Source: Dermatophagoides farinae (taxonomy: Eukaryota > Arthropoda > Arachnida > Sarcoptiformes > Pyroglyphidae). Taken from it: a stretch of DNA of 64,000 bases. Shown here in pieces: positions 791-61,973 of this stretch. The notes under the pieces were generated by a model. It did not search any database, was not told the DNA's origin, and was given only the letters and a program-made list of their open reading frames with translations. The stretch lies in NCBI RefSeq assembly GCF_024713945.1, contig NC_134683.1:913501-977500 (forward strand), given 5' to 3'. The translations under genes and the position numbers were made by a program. Position 1 is the first letter of the stretch. Each line of letters begins with the position of its first letter.

Positions 791-3700
791 ATGTCGAACA
801 TACAACGTTGTGATCAGCCAATCTCTCTTTGTTGGAAAAATTTACGCTATGAAGTCGACGAATGGTGTATGATCGACGGTTGGAAACCTAGACGTCAACG
901 AAAAGTGATTCTTAACCGTCTTAATGGTTCAGTGCGGTTGAATAGTCTGAATGCATTGCTCGGACCATCTGGTGCCGGCAAAACTTCGCTGATCAATTGT
1001 CTCACCGGCAATGTTCCAGCCAAGAACATTTCGTCCGACACAGAAATTTATATCAACAGTGAGGTAATCACAAAGTCATCGAATTCATTGGTCAGTTTTG
1101 TGCCACAATTCGTCCATGAGATTATTTTGGGACGTTTCACAGTGCTCGAGACTTTGTATTATGCATTCTGCTTCAAGAATCTTGCTCACAGTCATGGCCG
1201 AGCATATCAACACATCCAGTCAACGATCCAAGAATTGATGTTGAATCCGAAAGTGTTGCAAACACGTTTCGAAAATTGCTCTGGCGGCGAACAACGTCGA
1301 GTGGCCATCGCTCAAGAGCTGATGTCAATCGAATCGAAACCACCGTTTTTGTTTGTCGATGAGCCGACCACCGGTTTGGACAGTGAGTCAGCATTAGTGG
1401 TAATGAAATGTCTACACAGATTGTCCAGGCAGAATGGCATCACAGTCATTGTGTCAATTCATGCTCCTAGTTCGGACATATTGAATATGTTCGATCAATT
1501 GTACATCATAGCCAAGGGAGGTGTTTGTGTTTATTCTGATCAACCGGATCGATTACGACCACATTTGAATCGAATCACAGGAATCGCATTGAATGAGGAC
1601 GATTCGCCAATTCAAGAATATCTTCGCATCGCTAGCAACGGCATTGATGATGAACAAGTGAAGAAGTTGACTCAAGAAAGTGTTCAACAAGACCATCGAC
1701 GACTGACATCTCATATCAACAAATTAAACGAAAACGAATGCCCATTCCAATCGATTCCAAACGGTATTCCTCATTATTCCAAAAAATTTCGCTTTTTTGA
1801 TCTTTGGACACAATTCAAACGTCTACTGTGTTTAACATTCATTGCCGATGTAAGAATCCTGATTGGTGTTTTCGTCATAACCGCTTTCAATATAATTTTA
1901 TTTACATCATTCACCAATAATGATATGTTGATGCCTGGCGGATGTTTGCCGTTCGATATAGAACATTACAATCAAACTTGTCAGGATAAATTGAAAGATG
2001 ATCGATTAATTGGGACATTTATCATGTTTTTAACGTTTATAATGATTCTTATATTAGCACTCAGTATAGGAATGAATTCTTTGATTGCTGTCAATTCTAT
2101 GAAAGTTCTTCGCCATGAATATCGCAATGGTAAGACCATGTGGCATCAAACAATCAATGAAGAAAAATATTCTCTAATTTCAATTATTTACTTCCAGGTT
2201 GGTACAGTTATGCTTCATTGATTTATCCAGTTCATGTGAATGACATGATCACTTCGTTTTTCATCGTTTTAATATGCGCCATAACTTTGTTTATAACTAG
2301 CGGTATCATCTATGTTGATCAATATCAAATTAATTGGCATCGTTTGGCAATTTTAATTTTATTTATTTACCTCATATTTTTGTACGGTCAATCATTTGGT
2401 TACTTGGTTCTGGCAATTTGTATTGATCAACTTGAATTACTTCTACTATTATGTCAAGTGATACTTATCATATCTACTATAACTAATGGATTAGTGGTGT
2501 CGATTGATATAATGGACAAACCATTTTATTTGGCTATTTCTCATATAATTGGTACTCGATATTTAATGGAAGGAATCATTTATGTATTCTTTGGTATTGA
2601 TCGTTGTGATCCTCAAACAGAATATTCAAAGATCTTGAAACAATTTTTTATCGACCCAGACAATGTCTATTGGAATCTAATGTATCCTATTTATGTTTCA
2701 ATAGTGATTCGAATCATATCTGTCGTTGTGATGCGTTGGACCTTTAGAAATGTGAACGATTTAAAAATCATATCGGAAAAGAAAATGGAAACCTTGGCTA
2801 GAATCCTAAGTCCATCATGTGAAATTGATTTTCATGAAAAGCCTACTTCTGCCCAGATGATCGACAGTAATAATAATTTTAAAGTTGATTTGCCAAACGA
2901 AAATGAATTTCAAAAATTTTGTAATGGCCGTTTTATTATCGGATGGCGTCACTTGACATTGTTCGCTACCGATACCATTTATGAGGTGAGTCCGACACCT
3001 GAATCACTGGATGAATTTGGAGATAAGTTAATACTGCGGAATCTCAGTGGACAATTTCAGTTTGGAACATTGAATGCAATCATGGGCAGCTCCGGTTCGG
3101 GCAAAACGTCGCTATTGAAAGTTTTCAATGGGAAAATGAAAACGAAACTGACCGGTTCGACACAATTCTATCTCAGTCGTTTCGTACCAATTCGTACTTG
3201 CTATATCAACCAAGAAGTGTCAAATCACCTGATACCTGGTTTGACGAGCAAACAAAGTTTGGTTTATGCTTCTAAATTGAAGAATTGTCACAAAACAAAA
3301 ACAATTGATCATGAACAAGTGGCAGCCAAACTTCTTGGTGAATTAGACATGGTCAACACGGCCAACAACATGGTACAGAATTGCTCGGGTGGAGAAAGGA
3401 AGCGACTTGCTCTGGCGATGGAACTGACATCAGTTCGAATGCCCAATCTGATCTGTATTGATGAACCAGTCAGTGGGCTGGATTCCAATTCTGCACGGTT
3501 GGTCCTTCAATGTCTTCGACGATTCATTGCTCGACATCCGGACATCACTATGGTGGTCAGCATTCACCAACCTAGTACCGAACAGTTGGACATGTTTGAC
3601 CTGTGCTATGTGCTTGCATTCGATGGTCTGGGTATCTACTCGGGACCTCCAGCTCGAATCAAAAGCTTTCTCAGTGAGGCATCTTCCATCGATGATGATA

Positions 3701-4894
3701 AACGATTTCCAATCGAATCTCTAATTCGATATTCTTGTACTGGTCACTTGAATCCCATCGTACAGCGATTAGCTGTAGAAACCGATAATCAAATCCATAA
3801 AATCACACCGTCGTTGTTACAGGATACTGTTAATATAAAGGATGGTGTATCATTTCCTCAAATTCGGTTCTCATTGCGATCGGTAGCCATTTTATTCCGT
3901 CGTTTAGCTCACTGTTCATTTGGATATCAATGGCCATTATGGCTAGCCTACACATTCATGTACATTTTTCTGGCTAGTGTATTTAGAAGCTTTTACGATT
4001 TAACAATTACCGAAGTTGATGGTTGTATATCCATTGAGGATGATTTCCTAAACTACTGTACAAATGTTACCGATCAAATATGGAAAGAACAATTACGTCT
4101 TGCCAATAATGTAAATTATGTCATCTTTTCAAGTATCGCATTCGTTTTCATAATTGACATACAAATGATCAACTTGTTCACGTTAGAATTGAAATTTTTT
4201 TCAACTCAACATTTAAATGGTTTGTTTTTTTTTTTTTGTTTTTTCTTATACTAATTTTCTTCAATTTGAAGGTTGGTACACTTGTGGTGCATATTATCTC
4301 TCGAAATTGTTGTTCGATGCTATCACTATTCTACCGATGGTCATATTGTTTGTTTGTATAACCAATATCTATTCACCGGTTTCGCCTAACAATTACTTCA
4401 TCTGGCAAGTGTTTAATTTATATTTATCATCATTTTCAATTATGGCCATAATGAACATAAGCATAGTGTTACTACGTAAATCAATCATCGCCTTATTTAT
4501 TGTGGTAGGATTTTCACAAGGTTTTTTTCTATTATTATCCAGTATTTACAATGTAATTGAAGAAAAGAATTTTATTGTACGTTTTCTATCAAATTTTTCA
4601 TTTTATCGTTATCAATTTCCATCAACATTATTGCTTATATATGGTGGTGATCGTTGTCGTCCATATGAAATACAATCATTGTTATATATGTTGAACGTGC
4701 CAACAAATGATGAATATTTCTATGAATGTATGGTGAAACTAGTTTTATTGGCCATATTTTATCACACAATTGCATTGATTGTCTTCTGTATTAAATACAA
4801 TCCATTAATCAATCGACATGAACGTGCCGAACGAATTGAACGTTTTCGTAATGAACGTTTAATTAAATCTTACAAATTCAATAGTTATTTTTGA
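791..4894 (+). CDS. Full-size ABCG-family ABC transporter (two NBDs, two TMDs)
   Basis: Membrane ATP-driven transporter. Exons read 791-2129, 2198-4219 and 4272-4894 and join in frame to 1327 aa. NBD1: Walker A GPSGAGKT (residues about 58-65), signature NCSGGEQRR, Walker B LFVDEPTTGLDS, H-loop VSIHAPSS. It is followed by six hydrophobic segments (TMD1). NBD2: Walker A GSSGSGKT (about residue 743), signature NCSGGERKR, Walker B LICIDEPVSGLD, H-loop VSIHQPS, then a second TMD ending in exon 3. Order NBD before TMD and the motif style identify ABCG. TMD1's C-terminal half and all of NBD2 share one uninterrupted exon, so the two halves are fused rather than neighbouring genes. Both ATP sites keep canonical Walker A Lys, Walker B Glu and signature, unlike fungal PDR pumps, which have one degenerate site. 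The start is the first ATG before the N-terminal NBD. Substrate is unknown (lipid or xenobiotic are family precedents). The gene converges on the CYP cluster. Confidence 0.92.
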
Positions 4895-5139: not shown

Positions 5140-7000
5140 TTATATACGTTGTATGAAACGAATATTGACTGATGATTTTGGTTTTAAAACTAATGCCGCT
5201 TTCATATTAACATTACCAAGATAATCACCGGATTCAACACGATATCGAGACAATAAAGTGGCCAACGTGATTTTCTCTTCTTGTAGTGCAAATTTTTGTC
5301 CAATACAATTACGTGGCCCGGCTGAAAATGGTAGATAAGCAAATGGATTCATACGGCCACAATAATGTTCAGAACCTTCGATAAAACGATCCGGTATGTA
5401 GCGTTCTGGTTGTGGGAAATATTTTGGATCTCTTTGTATCATATAAATTACGAGTATAATTGACGTTCCTCTTGGTATGATACGACCGGGCTCTATTTCC
5501 GTGTCTTGTTGTGTGTAACGTGCTATTGCCGGCCCCGATGGATAAATTCGTAAAGATTCTTTGATACAGGCATCCAGAAATTTCATTTGTCTTAATTGAT
5601 TTTGAGACCAATTCTGCGTTGTTTGATCATAATCATCAGATTGTTGCCGTATTTCGTCGATTTCTTTATGTATACGATCCTGAATGTCAGGATGATTGCC
5701 GAGCAAATGTAATGTCCATATCAATGACACTGCCGTCGTGTCATGACCTGCAACCATGAATGTATCCACTTCTTCACGAATATCCAATTCGGTGAATTGT
5801 TTCGGATCTTTCAAATGTTGCTCGATCAATAGATCCATGAATGCTAAACGACGACCATTTTCATTCACATTCAAATTAAGATTCTTTTGGCTAAGAATTT
5901 TGTTTTTACGTTCTTTAATAACATTCATTGTGAATTCGCGAATTAGTTTAATATCACAACGATGTTCACGTCCTTCGGCCAAAAAATTAAAATAAATGAA
6001 ATTATTTTGAAGCCATGGCAATAACATTCGTTTCATAATTGTAGCCATAGTTCTGAAATTTGGATGAATTTAATTATGACAGCAAAAAAGTTCAACCATG
6101 ATCACTAACCTTGCAACTGCATCCACATAATCACGATTTTTATCGAGTTGTGAACCAATTTTCACACCCATTGCGGTTTCCGAGATAACATCCAACGTTG
6201 CATTCGTTATTAGTGGCACAATATCTAGATAACCATTACCACCAGCTTTCAGTTGACGATCATTGATTATACGAGAAAGAATTTGTGCCTGTTCATTCAT
6301 GATGGGTAAGAATTGTTCCAAAATATTAAAATGAAATGTTGGTGTCAATAATTTTCGTCGTGAACGCCATTTATCCGATGAACTGGTCAACAGTCCTTCA
6401 TTCAGCCATGGTTTAAGCATTTCGTAAAAACAATTTTTATCTATAAAGGTATCAGTGCTGGATAAAATTTTCTAAATGCGAAAAAAAAATTTTCGATTAC
6501 TATTTCCACACAAAAACACAAAAATTCGCAATATACTTACTTCAGCATCATCGGCATGACTAATAATTATAGCTGGAATGAATGAAAACCATACATGTGA
6601 TATTCCGCTAAAAATTTTGGACATTCCCGTAATCAATTTAAAATAATCTAGATGATTTTTTAATAAATGAAAAGTGAATTTGTCATAAATTAAAAAAATT
6701 TTTTTTTTTACTCTCTAAAAATGTTTCTGTTGCCAAACTTCCAATGAATAATATATCAATATTTCCAATTGGAATTTTCCAAAATGGAACATTTATGCCA
6801 GGAAATTTACAAATCATCGATCTTGATCGTAACCATCGCTGAATTATCCTTATTGAACGTAGCAAAAGTAATAAAACAATAATGGATATGATTCCATAAC
6901 GTATGAATAGAAGAATTATCTGATGAGCGAATGTTTCAATATTCGTTCCATTTGTCACCGTTGTTGTTGTTGTTGTTGTTGTCATCGTGGCCATCATCAT
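5140..7000 (-). CDS. Cytochrome P450, CYP4-like (copy A)
   Basis: Haem-thiolate monooxygenase, expected on the ER membrane. Four exons on the minus strand (7000-6712, 6647-6541, 6471-6110, 6052-5140) join in phases 1, 0 and 2 to 556 aa. An N-terminal Thr-rich stretch precedes a hydrophobic anchor (IILLFIRYGIISIIVLLLLL). Also visible: the WRSRRKLLTPTFHF helix-C region, I-helix EEVDTFMVAGHDTTA, ExxR in [17 protein letters not shown], and the haem loop [14 protein letters not shown] with the Cys ligand. The EVDTFM..GHDTT pattern is the CYP4 signature. The usual CYP4 Glu that forms the covalent haem ester is Ala here. Just after ExxR (SRS5), it reads PSGPAIARYTQQ where the paralogues read PSVPVISRYTHQ, so substrate specificity may differ. 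Tandem with copies B, C and E. Confidence 0.92.
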
Positions 7001-8082: not shown

Positions 8083-9927
8083 TTATGTACGTTGTATGAA
8101 ACGAATATTGACTGATGATTTTGGTTTTAAAACTATTGCCGCTTTCATATTAACATTACCAAGATAATCACCGGATTCTACACGATATTGAGACAATAAA
8201 GTGGCCAATATGATTTTTTCCTCTTGTAATGCAAATTTCTGTCCAATACAATTACGTGGCCCGGCTGAAAATGGTAGATAAGCAAATGGATTCATACGGC
8301 CACAATAATGTTCAGAACCTTCGATAAAACGATCCGGTATGTAGCGTTCTGGTTGTTGGAAATATTTTGGATCTCTTTGTATCATATAAAGTACGAGGGC
8401 GACAGACGTTCCTTTTGGTATGATACGACCGTGTTCTATTTTCGTGTCTTGATGTGTGTAACGTGATATTACCGGTACCGATGGAAATAATCGCAGTGAT
8501 TCTTTGATACATGCCTCCAGAAATTTTATCTGTCTTAATTGATTTTGAGACCAATTTTGTGTTGTTTGATCATCATCATCATCAGATTGTTGCCGTATTT
8601 CGTCGATTTCTTTATGTACACGATACTGAATGTCAGGATGATTGCCGAGCAAATGTAATGTCCATATCAATGACACTGCCGTCGTGTCATGACCTGCAAC
8701 CATGAATGTATCCACTTCTTCACGAATATCCGATTCGGTAAAATGTTTCGGATCTTTCAAGTGTTGCTCGATCAATAGATCCATGAATGCTAAACGACGA
8801 CCATTTTCATTCGCATTCAAATCAAGATTCTTTTGGTTGACAATTTCGTTTTTACGTTCTTTAATAACATTCAATGTAAATTCACGAACTAGATTAATAT
8901 CACGACGATGTTTACGTCCTTCGGCCAAAAAATTAAAATAAATGAAATTATTTTGAAGCCATGGCAATAACATTCGTTTCAAAGTTGTAGCTGAAACTCT
9001 GAAAATTTTGACGTATTTAATTATGACATGAATAAAAATTCACCCATGATCACTAACCTTGTAACTGCATCCACATAATCACGATTCTTATCGAGTTGTG
9101 AACCAATTTTCACACCCATTGCGGTTTCCGAGATAACATCCAATGTTGCATTCGTTATTAGTGGCACAATATCTACATAACCATTTTCACCTGCTTTCAG
9201 CTGACGATCATTGATTATACGAGAAAGAATTTGTGCCTGTTCATTCATGATAGGTAAGAATTGTTTCAAAATATTAAAATGAAACGTTGGTGTCAATAAT
9301 TTTCGTCGTGAACGCCATTTATCCGATGAACTGGTCAATAGTCCTTCATTCAGCCATGGTTTATGCATTTCATAAAAATTATCTTTATCTAAAAATGTAT
9401 CATTGCTGGATAATATTTTCTAAACGAGAAAAAAAATTTGATTACTATTTCCACACAAAAACACAAAACTTACTTCAGCATCATTGGCATGACTAATAAT
9501 CACAGTTGGAAAAATTGAAAGCCAAACATGAAATGTTTCACCAAAAACTTTGGACATTCCCGTGATTAATTGAAAATAATCTAGATGATTTTTAATAAAT
9601 GAAAAGTGAATTTGTCATTAATTTATAAAGCAAAATTTTTTTTTTTTTTTTACCATCAACAATTGTTTCTGTTGTCCAACTTTCAATGAATAACATGTCA
9701 ATGTTTCCAATTGGAATTTTCCAAAATGGAACATTGATTCCATGAAATTTACTAATCATCGATTTTGATCGTAACCATCGTTGAATTATTCTTATTGAAC
9801 GTAGCAAAAGTAATGAAACAATAATGGATATGATTCCATAACGTATGAATAGAAGAATTATTTGATGAACGAATGTTTCAATATTCGTTCCATTTGTCAC
9901 TGTTGTTGTTGTCGTGGCCATCGTCAT
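8083..9927 (-). CDS. Cytochrome P450, CYP4-like (copy B)
   Basis: Four exons (9927-9654, 9580-9474, 9419-9058, 8998-8083) with the same phases and, for exons 2-4, almost the same lengths as its paralogues, giving 552 aa. It has the N-terminal anchor, helix-C WRSRRK, I-helix EEVDTFMVAGHDTTA, KESLRLFPSVP for Exx[10 protein letters not shown] and haem loop [14 protein letters not shown]. As in copy A, the CYP4 Glu is Ala. Exon 1 (SKSMISKFHGINVPF) resembles copy E, whereas the I-helix and C-terminal tail (GNVNMKAA) resemble copy A, suggesting a mosaic made by gene conversion. Start is the ATG 5' of a short (ACA)n Thr tract, where all copies start. Confidence 0.92.
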
Positions 9928-11409: not shown

Positions 11410-13258
11410 TTATGTACGTCGTATGAAACGAATATTGACTGATGATTTTGGTTTTAAAATTATTATCGCTTTTTTATGAACATTACCAAGATAATCACCG
11501 GATTCAACACGATATCGAGACAATAAAGTGGCAAGCATTATTTTTTCCTCTTGTAGAGCAAATTTTTGTCCAATACAATTACGTGGCCCGGCTGAAAATG
11601 GTAGATAAGCAAATGGATTCATACGGCCACAATAATGTTCAGAACCTTCGATAAAACGATCCGGTATGTAGCGTTCTGGTTGTTGGAAATATTTTGGATC
11701 CCTTTGAATCATATAAAGTACGATAGCGACAGACGTTCCTTTTGGTATGATACGACCAGGTTCTATTTCCGCATCTTGATGTGTGTAACGTGATATGACC
11801 GGTACCGATGGATAAATTCTCAATGATTCTTTGATACAGGCTTCCAGAAATTTCATCCGTCTCAATTGATTTTGAGACCAATTTTGTGTTGTTTGATCAT
11901 TATCATCATCAGATTGTTGCCGTATTTCGTCAATTTCTTTATGTACACGATACTGAATGTCCGGATGATTGCCGAGCAAATGTAATGTCCATATCAATGA
12001 CATTGCCGTGGCATCATGACCTGCAAGCATAAATGTATCCACTTCTTCACGAATATCCGATTCGGTAAAGTGTTTCGGATCTTTCAAGTGTTGCTCGATC
12101 AATAGATCCATGAATGCTAAACGATGACCATTTTCATTCGCATTCAAATCAAGATTCTTTTGGTTGACAATTTCGTTTTTACGTTCTTTAATAACATTCA
12201 TTGTGAATTCACGAACTAGATTAATATCATGACGATGATCACGTCCTTGGGAGAAAAAATTAAAATAAATGAAATTATTTTGAAGCCAGGGCGATAACAT
12301 TCTTTTCATAACTGTAGATGAAACTCTGAAAATTGGATGAATTTAACTATGATAGCAAAAAAAGTTCAACCATGATCACTAACCTTGTAACTGCATCCAC
12401 ATAATCACGATTCTTTTCGAGTTGTGAACCAATTTTCACTCCCATTGCAGTTTCCGAGATAACATCCAATGTTGCATTCGTTATTAATGGTACAATATCT
12501 AGATAACCATTACCACCTGCTTTCAGTTGACGATCATTGATTATATGGGAAAGAATTTGTGCCTGTTCATTCATAATGGGTAAGAATTGTTTCAAAATAT
12601 TAAAATGAAATGTTGGTGTCAATAATTTTCGTCGTGAACGCCATTTATCCGATGAACTGGTCAATAGTCCTTCATTCAGCCATGGTTTAAGCATTTCATA
12701 ATATTGATCTTTATCTAAAAATGTATCAGTGCTGGATAATATTTTCTAAATGCGAAAACAAAAATTTTCGATTACTATTTCCACACAAAAATACACAATC
12801 TATACTTACTTCAGCAACATCGGCATGACTAATAATCATAGTTGGAAACAATGAAAGCCAAATATGAGATGTTTCACCAAAAAGTTTGGACATTCCCGTC
12901 ATCACTTTAAAATAATCTAGATGATTTTTAATAAATGAAAAGTGAATTTGTCATAAATTAAACAAAAAAAAATTTTTTTGTTACTATCAACAATTGTTTC
13001 TGTTGTCCAACTTTCAATGAATAACATGTCAATGTTTCCAATTGGAATTTTCCAAAATGGAACATTTATGCCCGAAAATTTACAAATCATCGATCTTGAT
13101 CTTAACCATCGCTGCATTATTCTCATTGAACGTAGCAAAAGAAATGAAAAAATAATGGATATGATTCCATAACGTATAAATAGAAGAATTATTTGATGAA
13201 CGAATGTTTCAACATTCGTTCCATTTGTCGCCGTTGTTGTCGTCGTGGCCATCATCAT
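11410..13258 (-). CDS. Cytochrome P450, CYP4-like (copy C), altered I-helix
   Basis: Exons 13258-12985, 12916-12810, 12745-12384 and 12325-11410 give 552 aa with the same intron phases as A, B and E. It has the anchor, WRSRRK helix [21 protein letters not shown] and haem loop [14 protein letters not shown]. The I-helix reads EEVDTFMLAGHDATAMS. The Thr that follows Asp in the consensus (A/G)Gx(D/E)T(T/S), the proton-relay position equivalent to Thr252 of P450cam, is Ala, and the CYP4 haem-linking Glu is Ala too. The reading frame is otherwise intact. The enzyme may be uncoupled, specialised for an unusual reaction, or on the way to becoming a pseudogene. The B' region also differs (FFSQGRDHRHD against FLAEGRKHRRD in B and E). 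Confidence 0.9.
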
Positions 13259-14033: not shown

Positions 14034-15901
14034 TTATATACGTTGTATGAAACGAATATTGACTGATGATTTTGGCCTTAAAATTAATGCCGCTTTTACA
14101 TCGACATTACCACAATTATCGCCGGATTCAACACGATATCGAGACAATAAAGTGGCCAACATGATTTTCTCTTCTTGTAGTGCAAATTTTTGTCCAATGC
14201 AATTACGTGGCCCAGCTGAAAATGGTACATAAGCAAATGGATTCATACGGCCACAATAATGTTCAGAATCTTCGATAAAACGACCCGGTATGTAGCGTTC
14301 TGGTTGTTGGAAATATTTTGGATCCCTTTGTATCATATAAAGTACGAGAGCGACGGACGTTCCTTTTGGTATGATACGACCGGGTTCTATTTCCGTATCT
14401 TGATGTGTATAACGTGATATTACTGGTACCGATGGATAAATTCGTAACGATTCTTTGATACAGGCCTCCAGAAATTTCATCTGTCTTAATTGATTTTGAG
14501 ACCAATTCTGTGTTGTTTGGTCATCATCATCATCAGATTGTTGCCGTATTTCGTCAATTTCTTTATGTACACGATTCTGAATGTCCGGATGATTGCCGAG
14601 CAAATGTAATGTCCATATCAATGACATTGCCGTCGTATCATGGCCTTCAAACATGAATGTATCCACTTCTTCACGAATATCCAATTCGGTAAATTGTTTT
14701 GGATCTTTCAAATGTTGCTCGATCAATAGATCCATGAATGCTAAACGACGACCATTTTCATTCGCATTCAAATCAAGATTCTTTTGGTTGACAATTTCGT
14801 TTTTACGTTCTTTAATAACATTCATTGTGAATTCACGAACTAGATTAATATCACGACGATGTTTACGTCCTTCGGCCAAAAAATTAAAATAAATGAAATT
14901 ATTTTGAAGCCATGGCAATAACATTCGTTTCAAAGTTGTAGCTGAAACTCTGAAAATTGGACGTATTTATGATGGGAAAAAAGCTCATCCATGATCACTA
15001 ACCTTGTAACTGCATCCACATAATCACGATTGTTATCGAGTTGTGAACCAATTTTCACACCCATTGCGGTTTCCGAGATAACATCCAACGTTGCATTCGT
15101 TATTAGTGGCACAATATCTAGATAACCATTACCACCAGCTTTCAGTTGACGATCGTTGATTATACGAGAAAGAATTTGTGCCTGTTCATTCATGATGGGT
15201 AAGAATTGTTCCAAAATATTAAAATGAAATGTTGGTGTCAATAATTTTCGTCGTGAACGCCATTTATTCGATGCACTGGTCAACAGTCCTTCATTCAACC
15301 ATGGTTTAAGCATTTCATAAAAATTATCTTTATCTAAAAATGTATTAGTGCTGGATAATATTTTCTGAATGCGAAAAAAAATTTACGGTTACTATTTCCA
15401 CACAAAAATCCACAATCTATACTTACTTCAGCAACATCAGCATGACTAATAACCATAGTTGGAAACAATGAAAACCAAATATGAGATGTTTCACCAAAAA
15501 TTTTGGACATTCCGGTCATCAATTTAAAATAATCTAGATGATTTTTTTTAATAAATAAAAAGTGAATTTGTCATTAATTTATAAAACAAAAAATTTTTTT
15601 TTTTTTTACTATCAACAATTTTTTCTGTTGCCCAACTTTCAATGAATAACATGTCAATATTTCCAATCAGAATTTTCCAAAATGGAACATTGATTCCATG
15701 AAATTTACTAATCATCGATTTTGATCGTAACCATCGTTGAATTATTCTTATTGAACGTAGCAAAAGTAATGAAACAATAATGGATATGATTCCATAACGT
15801 ATAAATAGAAGTATTATTTGATGAACGAATGTTTCAACATTCGTTCCATTTGTCGCCGTTGTTGTTGTTGTTGTTGTCGTCGTCGTCGTGACCATCGTCA
15901 T
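14034..15901 (-). CDS. Cytochrome P450, CYP4-like (copy E), canonical CYP4 I-helix
   Basis: Exons 15901-15610, 15533-15427, 15364-15003 and 14949-14034 give 558 aa. Start is the ATG at 15901, matching the position in the paralogues; the upstream in-frame codons lack an ATG. It has a long Thr tract (11 Thr in a row), the hydrophobic anchor, helix-C WRSRRK, ExxR in KESLRIYPSVP and haem loop [14 protein letters not shown]. The I-helix reads EEVDTFMFEGHDTTA, the textbook CYP4 signature with the Glu that in this family esterifies the haem. It is the only copy here that keeps this Glu, so it is the best candidate for the ancestral fatty-acid hydroxylase-type activity (inference). PERYIPGRF replaces the usual D with G. 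Confidence 0.93.
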
Positions 15902-16544: not shown

Positions 16545-16965
16545 AACACAATTATCCACCGTGAAAGAAATTCATTTTTCAAATATGAATAAATTGATTA
16601 TTACGACCAGGTCAGCTTTTTTTTCGTTCAATAATTCTAATCGAAAAAAAAACTAGAACTGTTTGTGTGTGTGTGTGTGTGAGGTTAAATTCATATCCCG
16701 GGAAAAGGATAAATTTTTTCATCAGTCCCTGATGATTATTTTACATTTTACATTTGATATATCGTTAGCAACAAAAATTCCAATGATTCTTGATGAATTC
16801 CTTGTGTACATAAATTTTTTTTTTGTTGTTTTGCGTCAATAATTCTGTGAAGAAAACTGGCTATTTTTTTCGCCTTTTAGTGGATTTTTTTTTCGTTTCC
16901 AAGTATTTAAGATTAATTAAGTAAAATTTTTTTTTTTTTTTTTTTTTTTGATTCATCTAACGAAT
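16545..16965 (+). repeat. Receptor 5' region, copy 1 of a duplicated segment
   Basis: The segment from about AACACAATTATCCACCGTGA through the (GT)n tract at 16662, the AACTGGCTATTTTTTTCGCC block, a T-run and GATTCATCTAACG recurs as two pieces at 18865-19013 and 20600-20929, separated by a LINE. In this copy it leads directly into the receptor gene, so it holds that gene's promoter or 5' UTR. A pyrimidine tract ending TTTCTTTCCAG at 16994 is a possible splice acceptor just before the start codon. Confidence 0.8.
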
Positions 16966-17003
16966 ACTTGTGTTTACAAGAAATTTTCTTTCCAGTCATA
17001 ACA

Positions 17004-18492
17004 ATGAATAAAATGATTGAAATTTTTCGGAAAAATTTCCTATCCATTCGAATAATTTCCATTGGTATAGTAAAAATGATTAGTCCATTACTACGATTAG
17101 ATGGATTGAATTATATGAAAAGATATTTCGATATGTACAATGATCCACAAAGACAATGTAAACAATTCGATTGTGACCAGATTAGCAAACAATTTCGTTT
17201 ATCATGGATTGGTCAACATCATCATGAGAAATGTTCCATTTGTCAAGTTGTTAGTTTCATCGAATTAATTTTATTAATATGCATTATCCATCCTATTGTT
17301 CAAATGTTTCAAGACGATAGCAATAATTTTAATAATTATCTTACTGCTAATCTATTTGCAATCACACCAGTAGGTCGTCGTATTCTTGTTCTGTTTATCA
17401 TCATGTTCGTCATACAGATCCAATATTATCTTCATCGGCTTTATTACCGGAATCAAACTGTTTCCATTCTCAATGCTGTATTATTTCAACAAGATAGACA
17501 ACAATTTCATCCACCATATCGTTATCGTACTAGAATGGCAGGTAAAGTAGTCAAAGATATTGCCATGATGGTGATCAAAATGGTCAATCTTTTTATGATT
17601 ATAACTAGTGAGTTATTCAAAATGTTTTGTAATCTTAATAAATTTGATTTGTTTCATCATTTCAGTTTTGATTATCATATCAATGGAACTATTATTAGTA
17701 AAATTTATCCTTGAAAATTTGAACTATTTTTTCGCTATATTCAACCGAAATATTTTGGTTTCTCTAAATCACGCTATGTGGCTAATGTTAATGACATTCT
17801 TTTGGAAATTATATGAATTTTTCCATGTTATTTATGCCCAATGTTGTGCACTATTTGCTCTTTGTTTATTGCCATATCTGATGATCTTTCTGATAAATGT
17901 TTGGCAAACAAAACAATTATTAGTCAATCTAAGCCGTGTATCGATTTTTCAAAGATTGAAACGTTTTCAACATTTCAATACATATAATCTGAAATTAATA
18001 CAATGGGGAAATGTTTATTGTGAAACGGTCACTGTATTTATATTCGTTAATGTTTCAATCAATTGTTACATCATCTTATTCATAATGTCTGGACGTTCAG
18101 ATTTGGTCTATTCTTTGGTTTTATCCACTTTTGCTTGTCAACAAATAGTGTGCATATTTGGTGTTCATTTATTGTTTGCCATTTGTAATCAAAATTTTCA
18201 TGAATCATCTACACGATTCTTGAATCTATTGGCTCGTGAATCCAGTGGACAATCCCGTATGAAGAATTTATCATTGTTATTGAAACTGTCTAATTATGGC
18301 CATGCATATCATACTGAGAATAAATATGGCTTTACATATGGAAAATTGCAGCTCATATCGATGCGAGAATTTGTTATGGTAAGATACAAAAACAGATGCA
18401 ATTTTTGTCTATTTCAATTGATTTTTATTTCTCTCCAACAGTTTCTATTACTGTATTGTCAATTTGTAATGTTCTTCTTTGAATACATTTAA
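17004..18492 (+). CDS. Gustatory-receptor-like 7-TM protein
   Basis: Exons 17004-17607, 17666-18378 and 18442-18492 join in frame to 455 aa (introns 58 and 63 nt; donors GTGAGT and GTAAGA, acceptors TTTCAG and CAACAG). About seven hydrophobic segments are visible, with an intracellular-type N-terminus. A short last exon encodes the final TM (FLLLYCQFVMFFFEYI) after a phase-0 intron. Arthropod gustatory receptors typically have a phase-0 intron before TM7 and a QF-containing TM7 motif (TYhhhhhQF); here the QF is kept and the Thr-Tyr is weak. The last intron has a multiple-of-three length and is open, so retention would add 21 residues. Start ATG at 17004 gives the N-terminus shared with the truncated relative at 11178. 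Expected role is a ligand-gated chemosensory channel; ligand unknown. Other 7-TM families are not excluded. Confidence 0.72.
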
Positions 18493-19047: not shown

Positions 19048-20599
19048 GGAGCATGACTCCTAGCTTTATTTAAAATTATCAAATAATGAAAAATGTAAAT
19101 ACAATAAAAAAAACGAGAATAAAAGTCATACAATGATAATAATCATGTAGATAAGAGATAAAATTAAGAATAGAGCTTTAAATGATGAATTTAAGGCGTT
19201 CATTCATATCCCTTAAGCGTCGGTGGACGAGATGGGAGAAATCAGATAGTTTGTTGTTATTTAACAATTTACCAATTGTGGAGGTCAAATGTTCGTTGCC
19301 GTTAATTTCAAAGATGTTCATAATGTCATCAAACATCGGACATGTGGTGATGTGGCTATAATTTTGTGGAGAATTGCACACAGGGCAATTTGCTGATAAA
19401 CCAATTTTTCGTTTATTAAACAGGTACGCCCTTGTTGGGCCGTGGCCTGTGCATAAGGATGTAATTTCTTGGTTAACTAGATTTATATTGAAATTTTTAT
19501 GATTTATTAGAGTTGTCGTTTCTTCTTTGTTACAATTATTTGATAAGTTAACCATAGATTCATTCAGATGTGATTTAATGATTTCGTTGATTTTTGATTT
19601 GGCATAGTACTTAAAGCTGATTTTAATTCGTGAAACGTCAACTTGATTTGTGTATGTGTATCGTTCAATATGTTTTACATAAATTGTTGAATATGATAAG
19701 TTCAAAAATTGAACAATTTTCATAATATTTTTGGATGAAATTGTCTGAATCTTGTAGAGACCAGATTTTATTGGTGTGTATACAATAATCTTTGATTGAT
19801 GTAAATAGTGGTGGTTGAGCAGCAATTTTAAAGATTTCCGAATGCTATTGTCTATTGCATCAACTAAGCCAGTATGAAACCAGTATTTTGTGTAAACGTC
19901 GAATGTGTGATTTCCTTGTACAATATTAATAGAAGAGTGACAAAGAATGAAATGATCATTGAATTGATAATTTATGTCAATAGTAATGTCGTGTTCGATG
20001 TTCCAATTGCCCATGATTATTATGTTATTGTTCAGTGCATCTACTGGTCCAACAGGAATTTTGCGTATTTTAAGTGCAGCTGAATTTCTTCTCAAAATTA
20101 GTATATCATTAATCAGAGGAGTACGTGTTAGTAGATGAAGACAATCGATCGGTGTAGATTTGAAAGCATTAATTGCATTTCTTAATAATGCATTATCAAG
20201 TGTGACCAAGCTTCTTTTTGATTGATAATTAATATTATTTGACCATATTTCTGAAGCATTTAAAAGGCTAGGCTTGACAAAACAATTATATAGAGTGATT
20301 CTTTTATCACTTGATAAACCAAATTTGTGCGATACATATGTTTTGAGGATTTGTAAATATTTGTAAGCTTCCAAAATTTTTTTCTTAACATGTAAATTGA
20401 ATTTAAGGTCTCTCGTAAAAGTTACACCAAGGATTTTAGTTGATTCGACCGTTTTGATTATAAGATTGTTTGGTGTTGGTTTGTTCTTTTTCGATAAAAG
20501 AAGAGCATTGGTTTTTTCTTTATTCACAGGAATTTTATTTTGTATAGCCCAATCAAAAACGATATTTACTATCCCATTTATTTGATCACATAATTTTTT
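19014..20599 (-). mobile_element. 5'-truncated non-LTR retrotransposon (LINE)
   Basis: The poly(T) run at 19014-19044 is the poly(A) tail of a minus-strand insertion. Upstream of it, one long open frame runs from the truncation point near 20599 to 19178. Both ends abut GT repeats, so the target was the (GT)n tract of the receptor-upstream duplicate and the target duplication is hidden in the microsatellite. The 5' truncation within the RT domain is typical of target-primed insertion. Confidence 0.85.
19178..20599 (-). CDS. LINE ORF2 C-terminal part (RT thumb to CCHC end)
   Basis: About 470 codons without a stop. The N-terminal part (WAIQNKIPVNKEKTNALL, then KTVESTKILGVTF) matches the end of a non-LTR reverse transcriptase just after the catalytic palm. 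LTRTPLINDILILRRNSAAL follows the thumb. The central region sits where an RNase H would lie but lacks the usual YTDGS motif (it reads DVYTKYWF). The C-terminus has SLCTGHGPTRAYLFNKR and the Cys-His cluster CPVCNSPQNYSHITTCPMF, typical of the R1/Jockey-type ORF2 end. An uninterrupted frame suggests a fairly recent insertion, though the copy cannot be autonomous. It encodes no host function. Confidence 0.85.
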   Translation of the reverse strand, partial: KKLCDQINGIVNIVFDWAIQNKIPVNKEKTNALLLSKKNKPTPNNLIIKTVESTKILGVTFTRDLKFNLHVKKKILEAYKYLQILKTYVSHKFGLSSDKRITLYNCFVKPSLLNASEIWSNNINYQSKRSLVTLDNALLRNAINAFKSTPIDCLHLLTRTPLINDILILRRNSAALKIRKIPVGPVDALNNNIIIMGNWNIEHDITIDINYQFNDHFILCHSSINIVQGNHTFDVYTKYWFHTGLVDAIDNSIRKSLKLLLNHHYLHQSKIIVYTPIKSGLYKIQTISSKNIMKIVQFLNLSYSTIYVKHIERYTYTNQVDVSRIKISFKYYAKSKINEIIKSHLNESMVNLSNNCNKEETTTLINHKNFNINLVNQEITSLCTGHGPTRAYLFNKRKIGLSANCPVCNSPQNYSHITTCPMFDDIMNIFEINGNEHLTSTIGKLLNNNKLSDFSHLVHRRLRDMNERLKFII

Positions 20600-21221
20600 G
20601 TGTGTGTGTGTGTGTGTGTCATGCGGTGTCAAATTCATAGTCCGGGAAAAGAATAAATTTTTTCATCGGTCCGGATGAATATTTCGAATGTACATTTTAC
20701 ACATGATTATTTTTTATGTTTTTAGCAACAAAAATTCCAATGATTCTTGATTAATTTCTTGTGTACATAAATTTTTTTTCTGTTTTGCGTCAATAATTCT
20801 GTGAAGAAAACTGGCTATTTTTTTCGCCTTTTAGTGGAATTTTTTTTTCGTTTCCAAGTATTTAAGATTAAGTAAATTTTTTTTTATTTTCATTTGTATT
20901 TTTTTTTTTTTTTTTTGATTCATCTAACGCAGTCATTCTCAACCACTGTGCCGCGGCACTTTTGTGTGCCGCGAAATTTTAGATTTAATAAAATGAAAAT
21001 ATTTTTTGTTTTGATACATTTGAATATTATGGTAATCCTGAATCAAAAACATGTACTTCGATTATTCAAATATCTATTAATAGTTGTGCGAATTGTTTGT
21101 AGTGGAACCAACATAGGAAAAATAAGTATAATTAAACAAACAAATAAAAGCAATTCTTCTTTAAACAATTTTTTATTAATCAATGTTTTACAAAAAGTGC
21201 TAGATTCTAGAAATGGCAAGT

Positions 21222-33879: not shown

Positions 33880-61973
<28,094 letters not shown>

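Follow-up and report, generated by a model that had tools for sequence, protein, structure and literature searches.

The closest described systems to the gene reported here are the full-size ABCG transporters of the PDR type and the half-transporters of animals. Fungal PDR proteins such as Pdr5 and Cdr1 carry two units per chain, each made of a nucleotide-binding domain (NBD) and a transmembrane domain (TMD). Plant full-size ABCG (PDR) proteins have the same domain order as the mite gene described below, and they are likened to it by domain order alone. Metazoan ABCGs, according to excerpts of a study of the spider mite Tetranychus urticae, are known as half-transporters only (PMC3724490), and excerpts of a second work list the full ABCG structure as lost in metazoa (PMC4649718). 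We analyzed 64,000 nucleotides of the house dust mite Dermatophagoides farinae (contig NC_134683.1, positions 913,501 to 977,500 of the forward strand, assembly GCF_024713945.1). This whole stretch is called the window here, and coordinates count from its first letter. At 791–4894 (+), the joined coding sequence (CDS) reads as a fused ABCG gene of three exons with the order NBD-TMD-NBD-TMD. The gene model thus differs from the animal half-transporter in having two NBDs and two TMDs in one gene.

The CDS is joined from 791–2129, 2198–4219 and 4272–4894 (+) and measures 3,984 nt, which gives 1,327 amino acids plus the stop codon and no internal stops. An in-frame TAA starts 6 nt upstream of the ATG at 791. 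Both introns are GT..AG and phase 1, and each splits the G and the W of an NGWY motif in its own TMD. A purpose-written spliced aligner returned identical exons; its query was the window protein, so the splice sites and not the reading are checked by it. The parts of the gene are as follows.

791..2129 (+): exon 1, NBD1 and the first part of TMD1, residues 1–447 with codon 447 split (from the CDS join and the spliced aligner)
2130..2197 (+): intron 1, 68 nt, phase 1, at NGWY of TMD1; found at this place in 21 of the 23 modelled copies of the family described below, absent from L021 and L036
2198..4219 (+): exon 2, remainder of TMD1, linker, NBD2 and start of TMD2 in a single open frame
2755..3024 (+): linker from TMD1 to NBD2, residues 633–722, intronless, closing with a conserved WRxLTLF-like block
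4220..4271 (+): intron 2, 52 nt, phase 1, at NGWY of TMD2, the counterpart place to intron 1; present in all 23 modelled copies
4272..4894 (+): exon 3, remainder of TMD2 and the stop codon

By Pfam, the window protein contains two stretches each of ABC_tran and ABC2_membrane, and within each unit the NBD stands N-terminal of the TMD, which is the ABCG order. The score for ABC2_membrane (PF01061) is 53.6 bits over the two stretches against a cut-off of 26.9, and 30.0 against the same cut-off in a second fused copy, L021. This match argues for ABCG rather than ABCH. Hydropathy gave 6+5 membrane helices for TMD1 and TMD2 of the window protein, 6+6 for L033 and 4+5 for L021, the three proteins scored in this way. 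Between the N- and C-halves of the window protein, identity is 26% across 562 aligned columns (E 2e-47). The exon with the second half of TMD1, the linker, NBD2 and the start of TMD2 lies in a 697-codon open frame. The first-pass annotation had described two complete NBD-TMD halves in one spliced gene, with the second half of TMD1 and NBD2 in one uninterrupted exon; the stop-free CDS join, the Pfam stretches and this open frame bear out both statements.

The coordinates of the catalytic motifs were derived from the CDS by arithmetic.

962..985 (+): NBD1 Walker A, GPSGAGKT, residues 58–65
1277..1291 (+): NBD1 ABC signature, CSGGE, residues 163–167
1346..1366 (+): NBD1 Walker B, FLFVDEP, residues 186–192
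1460..1462 (+): NBD1 switch histidine, residue 224
3085..3108 (+): NBD2 Walker A, GSSGSGKT, residues 743–750
3382..3396 (+): NBD2 ABC signature, CSGGE, residues 842–846
3448..3468 (+): NBD2 Walker B, LICIDEP, residues 864–870
3565..3567 (+): NBD2 switch histidine, residue 903

The Walker A lysine, the DE pair of Walker B and the switch histidine are present in both NBDs of all 23 full-length models of the family. The signature reads CSGGE or CSGGQ throughout these models except in NBD2 of L036, where it is CSDGE. NBD1 of L036 has an arginine instead of glutamine at the Q-loop position, and Walker A in NBD2 of L018 opens with serine. In fungal PDR proteins, one ATP site is degenerate. The Walker A of their N-terminal NBD reads GRPGSGCT, without the lysine (Pdr5 and one of two Cdr1 rows), and the signature of their C-terminal NBD reads LNVEQ (Pdr5 and both Cdr1 rows). 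This trait is not found in the fused mite copies, in nearly all of which both sites are canonical, as had been proposed for the window gene, and the two groups also stand apart in the NBD trees, within the limits set by the AU tests below.

The window protein was searched against the mite's own assembly (one genome; 62,435,336 bases in 22 contigs). The protein search yielded at least 46 matches, grouped as 28 loci with the window locus included; 35 of 159 candidates were scored, and the locus count is a lower bound. A membrane-domain search added one locus, L067, so that there are at least 29 fused loci on six contigs. Twenty-three were modelled full length, two in part (L067 and L069), and four are known as search rows only. 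Besides the window gene, the architecture therefore occurs at no fewer than 28 places in the genome, 24 of which were modelled wholly or partly. The full-length models measure 1,275–1,414 residues and have no internal stops, and 17 of the 23 are free of reservation. Called introns are doubtful in L018, L020, L029 and L036. No start methionine was found in L030 and L033, where the sequence examined stops within about 70 nt. The N-terminal side of L069 is cut by the locus edge, and its two search rows share a 719-codon open frame. L067 was modelled from the linker on; its TMD1 is a membrane-domain match in a 704-codon open frame. Each of the four remaining loci is a single match that runs from TMD1 into NBD2 or beyond, and two of the four rows list stops whose position is unplaced.

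C6:4506213-4508072: fused locus, single search row
C3:4082608-4084662: fused locus, single search row
C3:6345930-6348128: fused locus, single search row
C7:3102734-3104767: fused locus, single search row

Besides the introns in the TMDs, 11 of the 23 models have a third one, in phase 1 and close to residue 284. In L021, a single exon of 1,179 codons spans NBD1, TMD1, the linker and NBD2. Fused copies form arrays on C9 and C3; at C3:5613645-5643840 (−), six fused ABCG genes stand in tandem with a start-to-start distance of approximately 4.9–5.5 kb. Two copies on C9 have peculiarities of their own. L018/L013 (C9:2034309-2039568) is a fused copy with a called intron of 1,140 nt that holds a partial repeat of the TMD1 region. 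In L029/L014 (C9:2029197-2033282), there is an apparent frame shift near residue 129, and this fused copy is either decayed or affected by an assembly error.

The relationship of the two halves to each other was examined in NBD trees. The first contained 66 rows: 46 halves of fused copies, 14 further ABC rows from this genome and six named segments from PDB alignments. The N clade (100/100) and the C clade (100/99) were each recovered, and together with the divergent L063 they formed one group (100/100); long branches were flagged in this tree. The second tree was rooted on the PDR N-NBDs. It and the approximately unbiased (AU) tests omit both halves of 9 of the 23 fused copies, which are near-copies, and 5 of the 14 other ABC rows, which have long branches. 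The N and C clades are sisters in this tree (99/100), and the fused halves are placed together with seven half-ABCGs of this genome (94/95). L067 and L069, being cut by the locus edge, are in no tree. A TMD tree, with L042 and L060 left out, separates the N, C and half rows (100/99, 100/99 and 97/90, respectively).

The seven half-ABCGs (L039, L044–L047, L051 and L057) make up an ABCG1-like group and are the nearest relatives of the fused copies in the rooted NBD tree. They likewise have the NBD before the TMD and a TMD of the ABC2_membrane type. Several mite half-ABCGs share the NGWY and GxDRC-like landmarks with the fused copies, but they consist of a single NBD-TMD unit in the stretches examined. 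Among the mite ABCGs modelled against the second half, only L063 has a phase-1 intron at the NGWY site, with an acceptor that shifted with the query. L063 is a divergent ABCG with a degenerate NBD, in which CTVEERVK replaces the signature and FMEEP stands at Walker B.

On these sequences, we consider that an animal half-ABCG gene was duplicated in tandem and that the two copies joined in frame, ahead of the spread of the family, to give the full-size gene; we put the probability of this reading at approximately 0.87. The sister N and C clades, the grouping with the seven half-ABCGs and the same phase-1 intron in both halves all point this way and agree with the tandem duplication and fusion suggested by the first-pass annotation. 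Its further label, lineage-specific, is provisional, a single mite genome having been searched. Its claim of a full-size ABCG in an animal stands on the gene model and is now joined by 22 further models. It had also proposed a phylogeny of each NBD, in which sister halves, or halves nested within arthropod ABCG, would speak for a recent fusion. The halves are indeed sisters and lie near the mite's half-ABCGs, but the idea of one recent fusion does not hold against at least 29 divergent loci.

Several observations weigh against duplication and fusion of an animal half-ABCG. In L069, the aligner calls a 120-nt intron in the linker. A methionine precedes the NBD2 Walker A in all 23 copies, with further methionines in 15, so that an internal start is conceivable. 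Human ABCG1 falls just outside the mite group in the second NBD tree, with weak support (81/64). The AU test does not reject a grouping of the fused N-NBDs with the PDR N-NBDs (p 0.24) or one of all fused with all PDR NBDs (p 0.18). The top PDB rows are Pdr5 for NBD1 and Cdr1 for NBD2, although a row score sums both NBDs of a chain. L063 (C5:5256445-5259828, −) falls into the N clade of the first NBD tree with a long branch. It shares the phase-1 intron donor at the NG site and may be either a half or a fused gene. Cytochrome P450 genes occur in the flanks (usually 1.5 kb) of the examined loci only at the two of the window gene, and beside none of the other fused loci. The structure model of exon 2 is weak, with a mean predicted local distance difference test (pLDDT) score of 61.

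The matches of this low-confidence model are supportive only. Of its 50 best rows, 49 were ABCG or PDR and one was an ECF transporter. Four of the five Pdr5 or Cdr1 rows among these 50 aligned over 627–668 columns (the fifth, 7p04, over 382), compared to 223–423 columns for half-transporters. The fits to Pdr5 and Cdr1 are loose, with 13–14% identity and a root-mean-square deviation of approximately 11–13.

A variant that concerns age alone, and is compatible with duplication and fusion, dates the fusion far back in mites, or more widely in arachnids, and supposes that it escaped notice because surveys count domains as half-transporters. We regard this as evenly balanced. The lowest identity between copies is 34% for the N-halves and 40% for the C-halves, and the fusion would be old because the copies are so divergent. 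With at least 29 fused loci and halves this far apart, the family is, judged by its sequences, long-established and not the product of a single recent fusion. The small number of ABCGs given for arachnids (median 3.5) in excerpts of an arthropod survey would fit an overlooked fusion (PMC8290562). The spider mite speaks against it: the excerpts for T. urticae give 23 ABCG genes in ordinary NBD-TMD order, of which 11 form a clade with one intron or none. The ABCGs of that mite are thus likewise expanded, and none is described there as a full transporter, the comparison being by description (PMC3724490).

Descent from a PDR-type full-size ABCG, fungal or plant, whether by horizontal transfer or by retention from a common ancestor, appears improbable. 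The overall domain order is alike, and the top PDB rows and the two groupings kept by the AU test favour it. When NBD1 is scored by single domain, ABCG2 (99.6 bits) comes before the C-terminal domains of Cdr1 (82.3) and Pdr5 (72.7); the best PDB rows of both NBDs are ABCG or PDR. A union of the fused C-NBDs with the PDR C-NBDs is rejected (p-AU 0.005). The N- and C-halves are each other's sisters, and both mite ATP sites are intact where the PDR motifs are degenerate. The profile TIGR00955 (pigment precursor permease, the animal half type) scores above the PDR profile TIGR00956 with the window N-half (179 vs 106 bits) and with exon 2 (141 vs 88). For the C-half, TIGR00955 reaches 163 bits and TIGR00956 is not listed at 1e-25. 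PDR_CDR and ABC_trans_N, which we take to be PDR-specific Pfam domains, had no match in the Pfam list of the window protein at E 0.001. An origin independent of fungal PDR is thus the favoured but unproven reading. It draws on tree topology, intact ATP sites, absent PDR domains and profile scores taken together rather than on the AU test by itself.

A shade less probable again is that two separate half-transporter genes stand head to tail, with the second half starting in the linker. The methionine shortly before the NBD2 Walker A would allow such a start; the linker of the window gene holds two more, and AATAAA or ATTAAA occurs in 5 of the 23 linkers. However, neither signal is present in the other 18. 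In eight copies, the stretch between residue 640 and the NBD2 Walker A has a single methionine, right at the Walker A edge, and NBD2 would lose its first strand in a protein starting there. All 23 models have an open, intron-free linker with a WRxLTLF-like block preceding NBD2, despite the divergence of the copies. Straight readings of exon 2 cross from TMD1 through the linker into NBD2 without a stop in 22 of the 23 copies; the exon is broken in L029, which was left out. Such exact in-frame upkeep is not expected across many tandem pairs.

Selection on the linker was measured as the ratio of nonsynonymous to synonymous changes (dN/dS). For the cluster of eight that includes the window gene, the pooled values are 0.087 for NBD1, 0.394 for TMD1, 0.293 for the linker (residues 626–722), 0.111 for NBD2 and 0.333 for TMD2. 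The six-member C3 cluster gave 0.165, 0.210, 0.333, 0.160 and 0.214 in the same order. The corresponding values for the pair L026/L027 are 0.481 (few changes), 0.195, 0.274, 0.182 and 0.245. The linker is under purifying selection, with a pooled dN/dS of approximately 0.3, which tells against two separate genes, though the linker ratio rises to 1.43 and 1.94 in individual pairs. In the two larger clusters, evolution is faster in the TMDs (0.21–0.39) than in the NBDs (0.09–0.17). The distance matrices of the N- and C-halves correlate with a Mantel r of 0.98, and none of 9,999 permutations was as high. The two halves share one history.

The architecture is neither a chance open frame, the longest open run in 500 mononucleotide shuffles of the 697-codon stretch being 162 codons, nor a local assembly chimera, because it recurs at 28 other genome places and on six contigs.

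Downstream of the fused ABCG gene, the window contains four cytochrome P450 genes in tandem, with main exons at 5143–6069, 8086–9039, 11413–12342 and 14037–14966, all on the minus strand. The second to fourth of these exons are 84–87% identical to the first. A fifth P450 is a fragment upstream of the window (L017:1-183). A P450 neighbour is not a rule of the family. Six long open frames of the window had no Pfam match at 1e-5: 16917–17711 (+), 17605–18489 (+), 19181–20662 (−), 34363–36363 (−), 50302–50961 (−) and 58804–59445 (+).

Under duplication and fusion, the proposed course of events is the following. An intron-bearing half-ABCG, nearest to the mite's own ABCG1-like copies, would have duplicated in tandem. 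The two copies would have fused in frame, once and long ago, and the fused gene would then have expanded through the genome, including the arrays on C9 and C3. Its product is predicted to be one chain. In ABCG structures, two ATPs are bound between the NBDs, and each lies between the Walker A of one NBD and the signature of its partner. The mite chain would fold in the same manner, so that each Walker A faces the signature of the opposite NBD and two working ATP sites result. Both sites should hydrolyse ATP, unlike those of fungal PDR, because both are intact in sequence. The two TMDs would jointly form one export path. Since fusion would set which halves pair, the halves may be free to diverge asymmetrically. 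The likely role is that of a single-chain exporter with two active ATP sites. With less weight, we suggest hydrophobic xenobiotics or lipids as what is exported, in view of the faster change in the TMDs than in the NBDs, the size of the paralogue family and the P450 array next to the window gene.

No report of a full-size ABCG in a mite or another animal was found among the matches listed; subscription literature and genome databases were outside the scope of this search. In Psoroptes ovis, two genes labelled "ABC transporter G family member 20" changed in expression, according to excerpts of one study (PMC12364353). A wider view, tentative and held at slightly under even odds, is that a full-size ABCG subfamily arose within mites from fused duplicates of half-ABCGs and would be the first of its kind in animals. 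It would have approximately 30 genes with two working ATP sites and would be a counterpart of the PDR multidrug exporters of fungi and plants.

A large fused family in the house dust mite would break the rule that animal ABCGs are half-transporters only. It would offer a natural experiment on how fusion affects the pairing of the halves and the asymmetry of the two ATP sites. ABC inventories that rest on domain counting or half-length models may miscount mite ABCGs. The family also names candidate exporters in an allergenic mite.

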